64,000 bases of DNA from Paraflavitalea pollutisoli (lineage in GTDB: Bacteria; Bacteroidota; Bacteroidia; Chitinophagales; Chitinophagaceae): positions 1,115,949 to 1,179,948 of the forward strand of contig NZ_JARKMX010000008.1 of assembly GCF_029360705.1 (NCBI RefSeq), given 5' to 3'. The position numbers and the translations under genes are program-made. This document shows, in pieces, positions 8,935-38,187 of this stretch. The first letter of the stretch is position 1. Each line of letters opens with the position of its first letter. Below the pieces are notes generated by a model. The model saw only the letters and a list, made by a program, of their open reading frames with translations, did not search any database and was not told the origin of the DNA.

Positions 8935-9513
8935 TTAAGAATTTTTCCGGGCCTCTACTAAGGCGGTCACCAGCCACCACCAGGCAGCAGAGGTAAGGGC
9001 CTGTTTCAGTTGCAACAGGCTGCGGGCCATCAATTTATAGGAGGCTTTGACGGTTATGTGCATGATGTCGGCAATCTCTTCATAAGAAAGTGCTTCATAA
9101 AAGCGCAGGAACAGGGCTTCCCGTTGACGGGGAGTAAGGGATTCCATAGCGAGTCGGATCTTTTCGGCCAGTTCCTCCGGGGTATTGTCGCGGGTGAAAA
9201 AGGCACTGGCATAAAAGGCCGGTTCGTCGGCCTGGTCGGTCAGCGGCAGCTGGCGTTGCGCGCGCTGCATCTTGCGGAACAGGGAATAGCGGAAAGCGGT
9301 AAATAAAAAACTGTTGAGGGCAGCGGGCTGATCGATACGGTCCTGCTTGTTCCAGTAGTCGAGAAAGATATCCTGGATGCTGTCTTCTATGAGGACATGG
9401 TCGGTGGTAAACTTGCGACCATAGTTATAAAGCTTCTTGTAATAATGGACATAGAGGGTCCGGTATGAAACAGGGTCGTTAGGGTCAAAATATGGCGCTG
9501 TTTGATCCGGCAT
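8935..9513 (-). CDS. ECF-family RNA polymerase sigma factor (FecI-like)
   Basis: The 192-residue protein contains sigma region 2 (YVHYYKKLYNYGRKF..DHVLIEDSIQDIFLDYW) and region 4 (MESLTPRQREALFLRFYEALSYEEIADIMHI), with the helix-turn-helix near residues 140-170. It ends in a short Trp-rich hydrophobic tail (AAWWWLVTALVEARKNS). Such tails recur in FecI-like sigma factors of Bacteroidota. It heads the cassette fecI-fecR-susC-susD-GH127 and should direct RNA polymerase to the susC promoter when the SusC/FecR relay is triggered. The ATG was chosen because it gives a complete region 2 with no extra N-terminal leader. Confidence 0.93.
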   Translation of the reverse strand: MPDQTAPYFDPNDPVSYRTLYVHYYKKLYNYGRKFTTDHVLIEDSIQDIFLDYWNKQDRIDQPAALNSFLFTAFRYSLFRKMQRAQRQLPLTDQADEPAFYASAFFTRDNTPEELAEKIRLAMESLTPRQREALFLRFYEALSYEEIADIMHITVKASYKLMARSLLQLKQALTSAAWWWLVTALVEARKNS

Positions 9514-9582
9514 GGTTAGGTAGGTGCAGCCTCCAGCTAGGGGCAGTCGTATAGGGCAAGGTAGGAATTTTTAAGTGTTGGT

Positions 9583-9720
9583 TCAACAATTAATTGGAGG
9601 GTGTTGCAGGGAGGCCTGCGTCTTCGCAGACTTTACCTGGTAATGCTCCACGGAGAGTGGGACGATCAAATGGAAGGAGCTTCCCATTTGCGTGCCTTCA
9701 ATAATCCAGACTTCTTTTTC
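9583..9720 (-). pseudogene. possible C-terminal remnant of a sensor-kinase-like protein
   Basis: The minus strand reads EKEVWIIEGTQMGSSFHLIVPL, then about 24 more residues to a TGA at 9585-9583. A stop codon lies directly upstream. The W-I-x-G-x-x-x-GSSFHLIVPL pattern resembles the last strand of a histidine kinase ATPase domain. No start, no upstream G1/G2 boxes and no ribosome-binding site are seen, so this would be a scar of a deleted gene. The resemblance is short and could be chance. Confidence 0.25.
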
Positions 9721-9860
9721 TTACGAAAACGCAGGCACCTGGACCGATTAGTGAACTACCTTTTGTTACACGCAGACAGTCTACCGGCTGTTCCGGACAA
9801 TTCATGTTACTCAATTGGCCGGCCAGTATGATGAACGATATACATATATAATTTTCGGGG

Positions 9861-9868
9861 TAGTTTTG
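9861..9868 (+). promoter_or_regulatory. Bacteroidota -7 promoter box TAGTTTTG
   Basis: TAGTTTTG fits the Bacteroidota sigma-A -7 consensus TAnnTTTG exactly and ends 18 bp before the ATG at 9887. The sequence just upstream is AT-rich (TATACATATATAATTTTC). A clear -33 TTG element is not seen, so the call rests on the -7 box and its position. Confidence 0.45.
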
Positions 9869-9886
9869 ACCAGGACCCGACCAACC

Positions 9887-10333
9887 ATGATGAGACCCAG
9901 TGCTGTAAATTCATTGCTGATAACGATGCTGCTGCTCTGTACAGGCGCCGTATTGAACGCTCAGGTAGGCCGCGTGGATACCAGTTATATCCAGCGATTT
10001 GCCCGGCCCAATATGGTGGAGGCAGGACCAGGGGTGTACAGCATGAGCTTCACCTTCTCCCGGAGGCGCGAGCGCAACAGCAACTTTAAGTTATCGGCCA
10101 ACAGCAGCCACTACCTCGGCGCCTATGCCAATTACAAGTGGTTGTCGCTCCAATACGCCTTTAATCTCCCCGGCACACAGCTAGACAGGAACGTCAAACT
10201 GCAATATACCAGCATACGTTTCCGGTTTGGCGGGCGGAAGCTGGTGTTTCACCCATTTTATGACAGCTACAATAGCCTGCTGATACCAGACCATAAAAAG
10301 GATATGCCGAATGGGCGGGGTATGTACTGGTAA
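9887..10333 (+). pseudogene. truncated DUF4421-like exported protein (N-terminal part only)
   Basis: From the ATG at 9887 this encodes 148 residues: a signal peptide (MMRPSAVNSLLITMLLLCTGAVLNAQ), then beta-strand-rich sequence (DTSYIQRFARPNMVEAGPG, NSSHYLGAYANYKWLSLQYAF, FRFGGRKLVFHPFYDSYNSLL). This matches the start of DUF4421 outer-membrane-barrel-like proteins of Bacteroidota, which usually run to about 300 or more residues. The frame ends early in a poor tail (KKDMPNGRGMYW), and no continuation was found in the three forward frames downstream. Its stop codon falls inside the first 11-bp repeat unit, so the break coincides with the repeat tract. It may be an inactive stub; a functional short form is less likely. 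Confidence 0.6.
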
Positions 10334-10363
10334 TGCACCAGGAATGCACTGAGAATGCACTAA
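10331..10363 (+). repeat. degenerate 11-bp tandem repeat, block 1 (3 units)
   Basis: Three consecutive 11-mers start at 10331, 10342 and 10353, with consensus GAATGCACTRA. Units 2 and 3 differ at one base and unit 1 differs at three. The block starts within the stop codon of the truncated DUF4421 gene. A weaker continuation at the same period (TATAGTCCCGA then TACTATACCCG, from 10370) may belong to it. Confidence 0.75.
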
Positions 10364-10607
10364 ACGCCTGTATAGTCCCGATACTATACCCGTGCTTTTT
10401 CAGGCCATTCCCGGAATAGCACGCATACAGTCTGCACCCACTAACCATACCCTATGCCCGTTATTCGCCCGCTTGTTTACCAGACAGATCAACTTGTCCG
10501 AGCCAACCAACCTGGCAAGACCGGCGTTGGTCGTGCCACATTGCCGGGATTCCGCCTACACATCCTCTACATACCTTAGAAACATTGCCACCCGTCATTG
10601 ACAAGCC

Positions 10608-10662
10608 AGAGCATGTGTAGACAATGTGTAGAACATGTACAGACAACATGCAGAGAATATGG
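10608..10662 (+). repeat. degenerate 11-bp tandem repeat, block 2 (5 units)
   Basis: Five consecutive 11-mers start at 10608, 10619, 10630, 10641 and 10652. Each begins AGA and has ATG, or ATA followed by TG, near its centre; example units are AGAGCATGTGT and AGACAATGTGT. The unit is unrelated in sequence to block 1 but has the same length. Confidence 0.75.
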
Positions 10663-10666
10663 CCAC

Positions 10667-10681
10667 CAAAAGTGCCGACCA
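10667..10681 (+). repeat. block-flanking motif, copy 1
   Basis: CAAAAGTGCCGACCA lies 4 bp after block 2. A copy differing at two of 15 positions (CAAAAGTGCAGACAA) lies at the end of block 3 (11018-11032). The shared position relative to the repeats suggests that it belongs to the same element. Confidence 0.5.
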
Positions 10682-10924
10682 AAATTGCACAAACAATGCA
10701 GCATCCGATTTAAGACACCTTCTAGGCGCAACAGTCGACTAAACCACACAAACCAAGAAAGATACCCATCAGCAAAAAGAGCTTCACAAGTCTACTAAAA
10801 AGAGCCTTACAATCGAATACCCGGTTTGGGCCAGACTAAAGAAGGTCGGTGCCCTGATGAACCGGTCGGATTCGAGCATTAACCTCACAAATCCGTTAGA
10901 TAGTATCCCTTCCCTCACCTTTTC

Positions 10925-11023
10925 TTCGGGAATTGTTCGTGATTTCATTGGGAATGCTCAGGGATTTCCCGAAGAAGTCCCGAACGAGACACGAACGATT
11001 CACGAATCAGTCACGGGCAAAAG
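10925..11023 (+). repeat. degenerate 11-bp tandem repeat, block 3 (9 units)
   Basis: Nine consecutive 11-mers run from 10925, with unit starts at 10925, 10936, 10947, 10958, 10969, 10980, 10991, 11002 and 11013. The first four share a TTCGGGAATTC-like core. Units 5-8 drift to CCGAACGAGTC and ACGAACGATTC forms. Neighbouring units are more alike than distant ones, as expected for stepwise local duplication with drift. Confidence 0.75.
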
Positions 11024-11032
11024 TGCAGACAA
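11018..11032 (+). repeat. block-flanking motif, copy 2
   Basis: CAAAAGTGCAGACAA overlaps the last unit of block 3 and matches 13 of 15 bases of the copy after block 2 (10667-10681). A looser echo (TAAAAGTGCCCGCA, near 18982) precedes a 21-bp direct repeat elsewhere in the window. Confidence 0.5.
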
Positions 11033-11237
11033 TCCACCAGCTATTTGAAGCCTGGGGGCAGTTTTCCGGCAGCAATTGCAAATTAAAGTTCCTATTAGCA
11101 TTAAATGTTCCGTTTTGCGACACGGGCATTTGGCGGAGCGGTTGAGCCGCCGTTACATTTGATGCGGCAGCACCGGCAATATCGGTTACCCTGCCGGCAA
11201 CACAGTATCGTCATCGTTTATTTTAAAGCAATATCGT

Positions 11238-11879
11238 ATGGGAAGAATAGCAAAAGGCGTATTGGGCGGATTTTCCGGTACCGTGGGATCGGTAGTTGGC
11301 GGAAACTGGAAGGGGATCGAATATATCCGCAGCAAACCCGTTACCCGTAAAGGCAGGAAACAGTCGCAGAAACAACTGGAGCAACAAGCTAAATTTGCCA
11401 CGGCCATCCGGTTTACCCGCACTATCCAGGACCTGTTCATGGAAACCTTCACTAAAAACGCCAACCTGATGACGGGCATCAACAGCGCCATATCCGACCT
11501 TTTGAAGCGGGCACTGATCGGAACGTATCCCTTTTACGACATCCTGTACAGCCAGGTGATGATCAGCCGGGGCAGCCTGCCCAATGCAGCCAGCGCGCAG
11601 GCAGTAGCGGCGTCTGCAGGTGGGATTCAATTTAACTGGGGAAATATGGACATCCCCCTTGGCAAGGCCGGACCGAAAGACCAGGCATTGCTGGTGGCTT
11701 ATTGCCCGGAGTTGAACCGCGCCTGGTATCGTAAAGGCGTCACACGGATTGCTATGACCGATACACTCGATGCAAGTGGACTGAGCGGAAAAACAGTTCA
11801 AACCTGGCTGACCTTTATCTCTGAAGACAAGCGGGATCTAGCGGATAGCCTGTTCACAGGTGAGGTTACCGTGGCTTGA
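11238..11879 (+). CDS. DUF6266 family protein
   Basis: The 213-residue protein starts MGRIAKGVLGGFSGTVGSVV and continues GGNWKGIEYIRSKP, the Gly-rich opening typical of the DUF6266 family found in Bacteroidota. The middle is helical and the C-terminal half is beta-rich. There is no signal peptide or membrane helix. The function is unknown; the family is often multicopy in its hosts. The gene follows 0.9 kb of repeat-rich non-coding DNA and converges on the MNT-HEPN gene with 52 bp between stops. Family assignment is by recognition of the N-terminal motif; no role can be given from sequence. Confidence 0.75.
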   Translation: MGRIAKGVLGGFSGTVGSVVGGNWKGIEYIRSKPVTRKGRKQSQKQLEQQAKFATAIRFTRTIQDLFMETFTKNANLMTGINSAISDLLKRALIGTYPFYDILYSQVMISRGSLPNAASAQAVAASAGGIQFNWGNMDIPLGKAGPKDQALLVAYCPELNRAWYRKGVTRIAMTDTLDASGLSGKTVQTWLTFISEDKRDLADSLFTGEVTVA

Positions 11880-11931
11880 TGCTGTCAAAATACTGAATCG
11901 TGACACTAAGCGCTTAAAACTTATGGGTAAA

Positions 11932-12798
11932 TCATCCGGTGGTTATCCGTTCAAACGAGGCGATCTTTTCAAGGCACAGCGGGCCTGCTACGGCCTGCAG
12001 TTCTTCAACCCGTTCAATCAATGCTCCTAACTCAGCTGCAGTAATGTGATAATTGTCTTTATAGCGCGCATCAATATAGCCTCGCGTCAGAAGATCAAAC
12101 AAATTCATTTCTTCAGCCGTGTTCTCTGGAAAGATACTGTCGAGCTTTTCAGAAAACCGCTTGCTATACCGCTTCAGTTTATCCAGATTGTGCGTCTTGG
12201 GTTTATATCCCGTTTCTACCAGGATTACCGCATTGTAAGTACGCTCTGCTGCCTGATGCAGGTTGAAGGCGCCAATCTTTAGCCTTTCTTGTTGCAGGCA
12301 AAAGGAAGCAACTTTTAAAAAGTCTGTAGCACCGGCAAACCAATGATCGTAATACTGCTGCGCAATCACCTTGGCTTCCGCAGGGCTTAGCGCCTTTCGC
12401 TCGGCAAGCGGAGTACTTCCTGCATCATACAACAATATACCTTCCTGCTCGATATCGCTAAAGAAGTACTGGCCCTCGCTCAGCATCTTGTTGATAAAGC
12501 CAATTTCGTGCACAATCACATTCACCGGCGTTTTGTACACGCAGCGGTTCTCGATAATATCCTGCACCTCGTAATCCTTCCGTATATCGCCTTTCCGGGT
12601 GATCACCAATATATCGTAGTCGCTCACATACTCATACAGCCGGCCATCCTCGGTGCCGCGCTCCTGTACCCAACGGCCCGTTGCATGACTACCAAACAGG
12701 ATCACCTTTTCGGGATCTACCGCCTTTACGATGATGGCAGAGATCTCCCGCAGCTGCGCTTGCTTGTGTTCCGGTAAATGTTCCAAAGACGTTTGCAT
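11932..12798 (-). CDS. MNT-HEPN fusion: nucleotidyltransferase plus HEPN domain protein
   Basis: The 288-residue protein has an N-terminal minimal nucleotidyltransferase domain with Gly36-Ser37 (LFGSHATGRW) and Asp60-x-Asp62 (SDYDILVIT). A HEPN domain (about 135-285) follows, carrying Arg245-x5-His251 (RYKDNYH), which fits the R-x4-6-H RNase motif. In two-gene systems HEPN is an RNase toxin and MNT neutralises it by AMPylation. Here both are on one chain, a form common in Bacteroidota. The protein is cytoplasmic. It stands alone next to the DUF6266 gene and the repeat tracts, in a region that looks accessory. Whether it acts as a toxin, a defence factor or otherwise cannot be told. Confidence 0.85.
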   Translation of the reverse strand: MQTSLEHLPEHKQAQLREISAIIVKAVDPEKVILFGSHATGRWVQERGTEDGRLYEYVSDYDILVITRKGDIRKDYEVQDIIENRCVYKTPVNVIVHEIGFINKMLSEGQYFFSDIEQEGILLYDAGSTPLAERKALSPAEAKVIAQQYYDHWFAGATDFLKVASFCLQQERLKIGAFNLHQAAERTYNAVILVETGYKPKTHNLDKLKRYSKRFSEKLDSIFPENTAEEMNLFDLLTRGYIDARYKDNYHITAAELGALIERVEELQAVAGPLCLEKIASFERITTG

Positions 12799-12852
12799 GA
12801 TACAGTAAAATTAACTGATTGATGTAATAAAAATAAATCCCTGCTGGTGACC

Positions 12853-13287
12853 CTAGAAAACTAAGGAGCTGGCAATGTCAACTCGTTGTATATACGATTT
12901 TGGGGCAGGGGCAGATTGAGTTTTGCTAAATATAATAGTAGCAAAAGGCTTGCAGGTGACACAACCTCTATTTCGAATTTGCCCCGTCCACCAATCATTA
13001 CGCATGAAGGGAAATAGTTGATCGACCAGGATCTTCAATGGTGTATAGTCCTGAACAATTGACAGCAAGGCATCTTGCCCGCTCCGTCCGAACCGGCAGT
13101 CGGTAAACATACCACTGTTCTGGCACAGCTCTGGCACTGTTCTGCCACTGTTCTGTAAGGGGTTGGATTGCCAGGGCATATCTAGTGCTGCGGCAGGCAA
13201 CTGCCAGGCGAGTGACCTGCCTGTTTCGCTAAACGACGCCACCTCTTGGTTGCCGTACGTACGAAGTATGTTTGATCTCGTTTTCAT
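12853..13287 (-). CDS. doubtful hypothetical ORF containing an 11-bp repeat block
   Basis: From the ATG at 13287 the frame encodes 144 residues beginning MKTRSNILRTYGNQEVASF. I do not recognise a family. The 44-bp block of four 11-bp repeats at 13112-13155 lies inside it (coding for part of NSGRTVPELCQNSG), yet the other blocks in this window lie in non-coding DNA. No good ribosome-binding site is seen and the frame can be extended upstream to 13383. The first 40 residues look the most protein-like; the rest may be chance. It could be a decayed gene or a short leader peptide. Confidence 0.3.
   Translation of the reverse strand: MKTRSNILRTYGNQEVASFSETGRSLAWQLPAAALDMPWQSNPLQNSGRTVPELCQNSGMFTDCRFGRSGQDALLSIVQDYTPLKILVDQLFPFMRNDWWTGQIRNRGCVTCKPFATIIFSKTQSAPAPKSYIQRVDIASSLVF
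13112..13155 (+). repeat. degenerate 11-bp tandem repeat, block 4 (4 units)
   Basis: Four consecutive 11-mers start at 13112, 13123, 13134 and 13145. The consensus is SCACTGTTCTG: units 1 and 4 are identical (CCACTGTTCTG), unit 3 differs at one base, and unit 2 (GCACAGCTCTG) at three. The length is again 11 bp with a unit unrelated to the other blocks. Confidence 0.8.
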
Positions 13288-13383
13288 ATCAATCATTTTG
13301 AAAGCACAAAGCTGGGGCAAACACGCCCCCGGATCACGATACATACACGTTATAAACACCCGGCTTTTTTTGCAACCAGGCAT

Positions 13384-13409
13384 AAAAAAAGCGCCCGAAA
13401 ATCGGGCGC
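13384..13409 (-). terminator. Rho-independent terminator, leftward
   Basis: GCGCCCGA at 13391-13398 pairs with TCGGGCGC at 13402-13409 around an AAA loop. On the minus strand the hairpin is followed by a run of seven U (13390-13384). It lies about 115 bp downstream of the stop of the 2-oxoadipate dioxygenase-like gene and should end that operon. Confidence 0.8.
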
Positions 13410-13524
13410 TATATACGCTTTTGCGCAGTTTTTAAAACTTTGAGTAGCTTTTACGCTAAAACTGTTTATAACGGGTGTTTACATTTTCCAAGACCGGGCA
13501 AAGACGTCCTACCGGCCTATAAGC

Positions 13525-38020: not shown

Positions 38021-38064
38021 CATGGGAGCGAGTAGGGAGCGGCATGGAAGCGAGTGGGGAGCGG
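38021..38064 (+). repeat. degenerate 11-bp tandem repeat, block 5a (4 units)
   Basis: Four 11-mers start at 38021, 38032, 38043 and 38054. Units 1 and 3 (CATGGGAGCGA type) and units 2 and 4 (GTAGGGAGCGG type) alternate, giving a 22-bp higher-order repeat with one mismatch between copies of each. Confidence 0.85.
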
Positions 38065-38116
38065 CACCCTCCGGACACATAAGCCCCGTCCTTTTTTAGC
38101 GAAAATGGCCTTGTTT

Positions 38117-38134
38117 TGAAAGTTGAGCTATTTA
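38117..38134 (+). repeat. leader element preceding repeat block 5b
   Basis: TGAAAGTTGAGCTATTTA abuts block 5b and matches the element at 37992-38009 over the core GTTG.GCTATTT plus the preceding GAAA. The spacing between the two copies is about 125 bp. Confidence 0.55.
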
Positions 38135-38187
38135 TACGGGATCGGTACGGGAACGGTACGGGATGGGTACGGGAGCGCCTGGGGTAC
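38133..38187 (+). repeat. degenerate 11-bp tandem repeat, block 5b (5 units)
   Basis: Five 11-mers start at 38133, 38144, 38155, 38166 and 38177, with core GGTACGGGAWS. Units 2, 3 and 4 share the nine bases GGTACGGGA; units 1 and 5 are more diverged. Confidence 0.85.

Follow-up and report, generated by a model that had tools for sequence, protein, structure and literature searches.

Tandem repeat arrays with a 10- or 11-bp step and variable units upstream of DUF6266 genes in Bacteroidota

Genes of the DUF6266 family are accompanied by arrays of tandem repeats with a period of 10 or 11 bp. Across Bacteroidota, such an array is located within 430 bp upstream of the gene in 26 of 41 DUF6266 regions, which is well above the frequency at control genes. 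The combination of variable units with a step of nearly one helical turn upstream of these genes points to an undescribed DNA-recognition system. For DUF6266, a family for which our literature search retrieved no paper, this offers a first lead in the form of a noncoding neighbour with a fixed helical step and a variable sequence.

The window under study is a stretch of 64,000 nucleotides from the 8.76-Mb genome of Paraflavitalea pollutisoli (G000). It comprises the following features:

10310 to 10445, plus strand: family A element, contains block 1; six further copies in G000
10331 to 10363: block 1, within the family A element; TRF period 11, lag-11 identity 17/22
10521 to 10643, plus strand: family B element, contains most of block 2, array extends to about 10662
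10608 to 10662: block 2, mostly within the family B element; TRF period 11, lag-11 identity 30/44
10919 to 11010, plus strand: family C element, two 11-bp arrays inverted around a dyad, array extends to about 11016
10925 to 11023: block 3, the family C element; TRF period 11, lag-11 identity 53/88
11154 to 11161, plus strand: candidate -7 element TACATTTG between block 3 and the DUF6266 gene; such matches are not above chance here
11238 to 11879, plus strand: DUF6266 gene, PF19781 match of 132 bits; no other was found in G000
13113 to 13155: family D array with the unit GGCACTGTTCT, also present at L013:14199

The first-pass annotation had described three 11-bp tandem blocks, and both the TRF periods and the lag-11 identities confirm them. 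Between 9596 and 11240 the top local score was 25 at lag 11, with all other lags from 5 to 30 at 13 or below. An excess of such arrays over shuffled DNA does exist, since 864 kb sampled from the G000 genome contained 28 lag-11 arrays as compared to 2 in one order-1 Markov shuffle; 25 of the 28 are located outside of genes predicted by a simple codon-model gene caller. Each block belongs to a dispersed family of its own, which makes three families in all. The designation of the tract as a leader is unsupported, block 3 ending about 220 bp 5' of the DUF6266 start codon. The sequence TACATTTG in between we take to be a possible -7 element of the Bacteroidota type. A search of window positions 9500 to 13500 against Rfam gave no match inside the tract at E-values up to 1, the sole matches being three sub-threshold ones near 13400. 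A literature search on 11-bp tandem repeats and on the repeats of Chitinophaga, Niastella and Bacteroidetes found no description of these arrays.

The window holds some further features of note. Two additional 11-bp arrays with GGGAGCGAGTA-like and TACGGGATCGG units lie within 120 bp of each other in an intergenic region (38021-38174). A dispersed repeat with a terminator-like hairpin is present at 13207-13487 and is 76% alike over 283 columns to a place at G000a 234295 and 68% over 222 columns to one at G000w 157548. A gene for a HEPN-nucleotidyltransferase fusion (11932-12798) has three relatives in G000, one of which is 78% identical and located about 1.1 kb from a family B element (C15:981318). 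Next to the tract, the DUF4421 gene at 9896-10333 is possibly truncated, because its match covers only positions 1-102 of the 302-position profile.

The three families are dispersed, intergenic and inverted. With window positions 10310-11040 as query, the whole G000 genome yielded 21 matches including the query itself, and the other copies comprise six of family A, five of B and nine of C; at the sensitivity of this search family B extends from about 10540 to 10646. Covariance models, which scored 150 candidates per genome and whose counts for B and C are lower bounds with strand duplicates merged by hand, place family B at least 31 times in G000 and, elsewhere in the genus, at least nine times in G003, at least 18 times in G002, at least once (weakly) in G004 and not among the listed matches of G001. 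The corresponding numbers for family C are at least ten places at 78 bits or more in G000 (at least eleven at E-values up to 0.01), at least nine in G003, at least three in G002, at least one in G004 and none among those listed for G001. The alignment of family A revealed no consistent fold.

Members of different families can lie close together. In G000, family B is found within 550 bp of C at five of the ten strong C places, and the same holds for two places in G003; family A is located between C and B at C15:2754504-2755017, and family D, as judged by eye, adjoins C or sits between C and B at three loci (L278, L279, L280). Alignments between such element islands extend over 507 columns at 60% and over 377 columns at 63%, so that what is common to them goes beyond single arrays. 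Family B is over-represented in convergent spacers, with 9 of 24 places, and under-represented in divergent ones, with 2 of 24, as against 10% and 40% of the background intergenic bases. Blocks 1 and 2 share the period and the dispersal of block 3, and no partner gene is apparent for them. A link to DUF6266 is supported for block 3 and family C and unsupported for blocks 1 and 2.

Family C displays the most regular architecture. Its alignment contains 21 copies, with three weaker places left out, and 18 of these are exactly 92 bp long (10 from G000, 7 from G003, 1 from G002); the following counts refer to these 18 and omit the three copies of other length. TTCG is at positions 7 and 18, ATTG at 29 and CGAA at 52, 63, 74 and 85, with the centre of symmetry at position 42. 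What had been read as a drift of the unit in block 3 is instead an inverted pair, in which TTCG recurs in 11-bp steps on the left and CGAA in 11-bp steps on the right. Each unit carries a 4-bp anchor, the TTCG and CGAA anchors hold 1.4-2 bits, and the triplets preceding the outer three CGAA are near-random with 0-0.4 bits. The autocorrelation of the information content amounts to 0.36 at lag 11 and 0.24 at lag 22. Between species the units have shifted together, with GGGAAT in most G000 copies and GGTATT in several copies of G003 and G002. Watson-Crick pairing about the dyad is 54-56% in registers 62, 73, 84 and 95 and 47% in register 106, and since the first four are nearly equal, pairing can slip by one unit. 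Among the mismatches, G.T outnumbers A.C by 51 to 24 in register 62 (p 0.002) and 60 to 31 in register 73 (p 0.003), which is not so in register 84 (76 to 53, p 0.05), register 95 (63 to 70) or register 106 (70 to 76); in family B, A.C is the commoner mismatch. The mismatch types are mixed and the cells are not independent, and they neither establish nor exclude an RNA.

DUF6266 matches are found in 9 of 60 genomes of the family, in 3 of 5 of the genus and in 25 of 345 of the phylum. A family C element lies about 230 bp upstream of the DUF6266 gene in three species (G000, G002 and G003); G001 and G004, with no and one C match among those listed, respectively, have no DUF6266. The 41 regions consist of 21 loci from the family and genus and 20 of 40 new rows from the phylum, mostly the best-scoring ones. 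Two partial matches (L372, L374) and the second piece of a gene already represented by L385 (L383) were left out before counting; the upstream region of L406 comprises just 275 bp, and L381 and L382 are near twins. An array with a period of 10 or 11 bp is present in 15 of 21 regions within Chitinophagaceae and in 11 of 20 outside of this family, where shuffles and other periods serve as the control. In 50 shuffles of the DUF6266 regions, on average 0.26 and at most one region had such an array, as compared to the 26 real ones. For control genes, drawn from four genomes only (G000, G002, G008 and G013), the numbers are 28 of 1182 overall, 20 of 247 with at least 300 bp of noncoding DNA upstream and 19 of 150 with at least 400 bp, the last differing from the DUF6266 regions with p 3e-10 (Fisher). 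A concentration of arrays upstream of DUF6266 genes is thus supported, and the link holds, with 15 of the 41 regions having no such array.

Sorted by period, 22 of the 41 regions have arrays of 11 bp, nine of 10 bp, three of 9 bp and one each of 7 and 8 bp, and doubled periods occur as well (20 bp in six regions, 22 bp in ten); periods of 5, 6, 12 and 13 bp are absent from these upstream regions. Enrichment of 10, 11 and their doubles would be expected if something reads the DNA at intervals of roughly one helical turn. The unit sequences differ among the loci (GCTAACTATAT, CCGGTGCTGCT, TCTAAGCATGT, GAAAAGTATG and others). Of the earlier suggestion that spacing is read rather than sequence, the first half agrees with the enriched periods, but sequence is not ignored, as the family C anchors and a TTCG or CGAA in 12 of the 26 DUF6266 arrays (counted by eye) demonstrate. 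The distance from the array end to the gene is 109-197 bp for period 10 and 74-379 bp for period 11. Both periods occur together at L386, L387, L397, L398 and L399, the 11-bp array being the outer one.

Vertical inheritance is seen at two loci. Family C is located between the genes for a low-molecular-weight phosphatase and a TonB-like protein in both G000 and G002, besides its place upstream of DUF6266 in G000, G002 and G003. The convergent spacer beside secDF harbors an inverted 11-bp array in both Chitinophaga pinensis and Chitinophaga deserti. A single exact 11-bp unit and roughly three substitutions separate the two spacers; in the same comparison the adjoining 60-bp windows are 71-78% alike ahead of the array and 17-68% beyond it, and the coding neighbours 90-100%. 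In other Chitinophaga species the secDF spacer has different units or no array. Between species of Niastella, a BLAST match at the corresponding place is lacking for most testable arrays and exists for a few. The 8.44-Mb single-contig genome of G002 has a second DUF6266 gene, and all five further copies of its array are located within 322 kb of the gene. The arc spanning the six array places has a p of 3.5e-5, a value noticed after the fact and in one genome. In G003 this array has five weaker matches, one of them 63 kb from the DUF6266 gene and four on other contigs; a search of G000 found no copy. All 18 listed family B places of G002 also fall within half the chromosome (p 0.0002, post hoc and in one genome), and family C exhibits no such clustering.

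Intergenic arrays were also counted in named valS loci of Chitinophagaceae, 80 in number and 1.43 Mb in total, with 203 kb called noncoding. They comprise 130 arrays of period 7, 64 of period 8, nine of period 9 and 19 of period 11. The remaining periods are rare (period 4: 2, 5: 3, 6: 3, 10: 4, 12: 1, 13: 4), and shuffled noncoding DNA gave 0-2 arrays per period. Over whole loci, period 11 predominates in Chitinophaga, and periods 7 and 8 predominate in Niastella, Longitalea and Pinibacter; few arrays occur in the small samples taken from seven further families of the order. Inverted partners exist for 33% of the period-7 and 34% of the period-8 arrays, compared to 3% and 9% for shuffled units. 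In Longitalea arenae (L131:13439-13916), eight period-8 arrays recur every 60-70 bp or so as a tandem repeat of tandem repeats. The fixed step of about one turn that had been postulated is thus observed at the DUF6266 arrays, but it is not a general rule, because sister genera have arrays of 7 and 8 bp. In any case, the restricted periods of intergenic repeats in this family (7, 8 and 11) call for an explanation.

Judging from sequence, we tentatively favour, at somewhat less than an even chance, that the 10- and 11-bp arrays are phased half-sites read by an oligomerising protein, most likely DUF6266 or a partner. Block 3 and its counterparts upstream of other DUF6266 genes would be half-sites phased helically in steps of 10 or 11 bp, which the protein would contact on roughly one face of double-stranded DNA. 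Array and reader would change together, so that the unit would differ from locus to locus and the step would stay fixed. The DUF6266 protein or its partner might act at its own upstream region and at the dispersed copies of the array, and blocks 1 and 2 could be copies of two more families of similar build with readers unknown or lost. Phased half-sites are favoured by the 26 of 41 DUF6266 regions with arrays, the lag-11 and lag-22 autocorrelation of family C with its anchors, the position of C in three species, the one or no listed C match in the two genomes that lack DUF6266, and the copies around the gene in G002. The model is weakened by the C-terminal FN3 fold in the predicted structure of DUF6266, which does not suggest DNA binding, by the regions without an array and the location of most G000 arrays away from DUF6266, and by the period-7 and -8 arrays of sister genera, which are inverted too, yet without one-turn spacing.

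The main rival explanation, which we consider rather unlikely, sees REP-like extragenic hairpins that function as RNA or single-stranded DNA stems and whose arms gain or lose whole units by slippage, so that the DUF6266 link would be a by-product or DUF6266 would act on the hairpin. It is favoured over phased sites by the folding of C, B and relatives as RNA, strong for C and several relatives (z -5.5 for C of the window; two Chitinophaga elements reach -4.2 and -4.9 and one element of period 8 reaches -10.2), by compensated pairs in B (7/14 and 4/8 in two analyses) and in C (7/11), and by the G.T excess in two of five C registers; the inverted partners of period-7 and -8 arrays and the preference of family B for convergent spacers fit as well. 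However, registers 84, 95 and 106 do not have that mismatch bias and B has the opposite one, the folds of B and A are modest (z -2.3 and -2.6, respectively), and the DUF6266-linked period-10 arrays are in most rows no better than shuffled units at having an inverted partner. RNAalifold detected no both-sided changes in the first C alignments, in which half of the copies were reversed, nor after realignment. Nor does a hairpin by itself explain why the steps next to DUF6266 should be 10 or 11.

Known regulators that bind direct repeats, for example MerR proteins of the CarH type or response regulators of the PhoB/OmpR type, might use the arrays as operators, but this is quite improbable. CarH does bind tandem 11-bp repeats of the form nnnnTnnACAn, according to the excerpted source (PMC9304148), and three units of block 2 on the minus strand, 11 bp apart, fit TnnACA by eye. 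Inspection shows no such fit in blocks 1 and 3, nor in most consensus units of family B, and the arrays comprise many unit families, some of them in convergent spacers. An origin by neutral slippage, or by target-site duplications of a set length that happened repeatedly, with no reader, appears very improbable. Such an origin would agree with lengths that are fixed while the sequence changes, with the gain or loss of a single 11-bp unit that separates C. pinensis from C. deserti and with the unmatched arrays of Niastella. Nevertheless, it fails to predict the conserved gapless family C, the conservation of an element above its flanks in one species pair, unit changes common to the copies within a species and the DUF6266 link.

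A bolder version of the phased half-site model, which we regard as unlikely, is that the DUF6266 proteins form a novel class that binds DNA or organises the chromosome. Each would have an array family to itself, with the step locked to one helical turn and the unit free to change. The dispersed copies would mark a territory around the gene, and families A, B and D would be sites or fossils of further such pairs. If DUF6266 does read the arrays, they would provide many natural protein-site pairs for studying change in DNA recognition and perhaps a new way by which Bacteroidota mark chromosomal regions.

The arrays share features with several known systems. Cyanobacterial STRR heptamers likewise combine a fixed unit length with several unit sequences in intergenic DNA, but their period is 7, and to our knowledge they have neither an inverted form nor a linked gene. 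The operators of PhoB/OmpR-type regulators share the head-to-tail arrangement of sites about one helical turn apart. As far as the excerpted sources describe them, REP/BIME elements with their TnpA-REP (RAYT) proteins, including subclass 2.6 of Bacteroidetes, are alike in being short, intergenic, inverted and dispersed with several families per genome, and in that a gene is flanked by an element of its own, further copies of which lie at other places (PMC6006769, PMC3733652). Unlike these, the arms described here are tandem 11-bp units, and the linked gene is DUF6266 and not a Y1 transposase. The GT[AG]G foot of REPtron elements is, in the excerpted account, not expected in subclass 2.6 (PMC6006769). 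The 300 bp on the outside of each of 20 Y1-type ORFs of the family contained no array with a period of 7, 8 or 11, with only about one expected (8 arrays in the other 77 kb). At 12 Y1 loci of the genus no period-11 array was listed, and two of these loci (L207 and L211) feature arrays of period 7 no more than 50 bp from the gene. Both are weak tests. Two Y1-transposase genes (L215:1396-1998 and L217:1417-2013) resemble TnpA-REP subclass 2.6 by motif and have no adjoining period-11 arrays or, in the sample, repeats in their flanks. CarH operators, finally, are alike in that tandem 11-bp direct repeats are read by an oligomer on one face of the DNA; in the excerpted description they consist of a single motif with three to four repeats near carotenoid promoters, whereas the arrays presented here comprise many unit families, inverted pairs and dispersed copies (PMC9304148).
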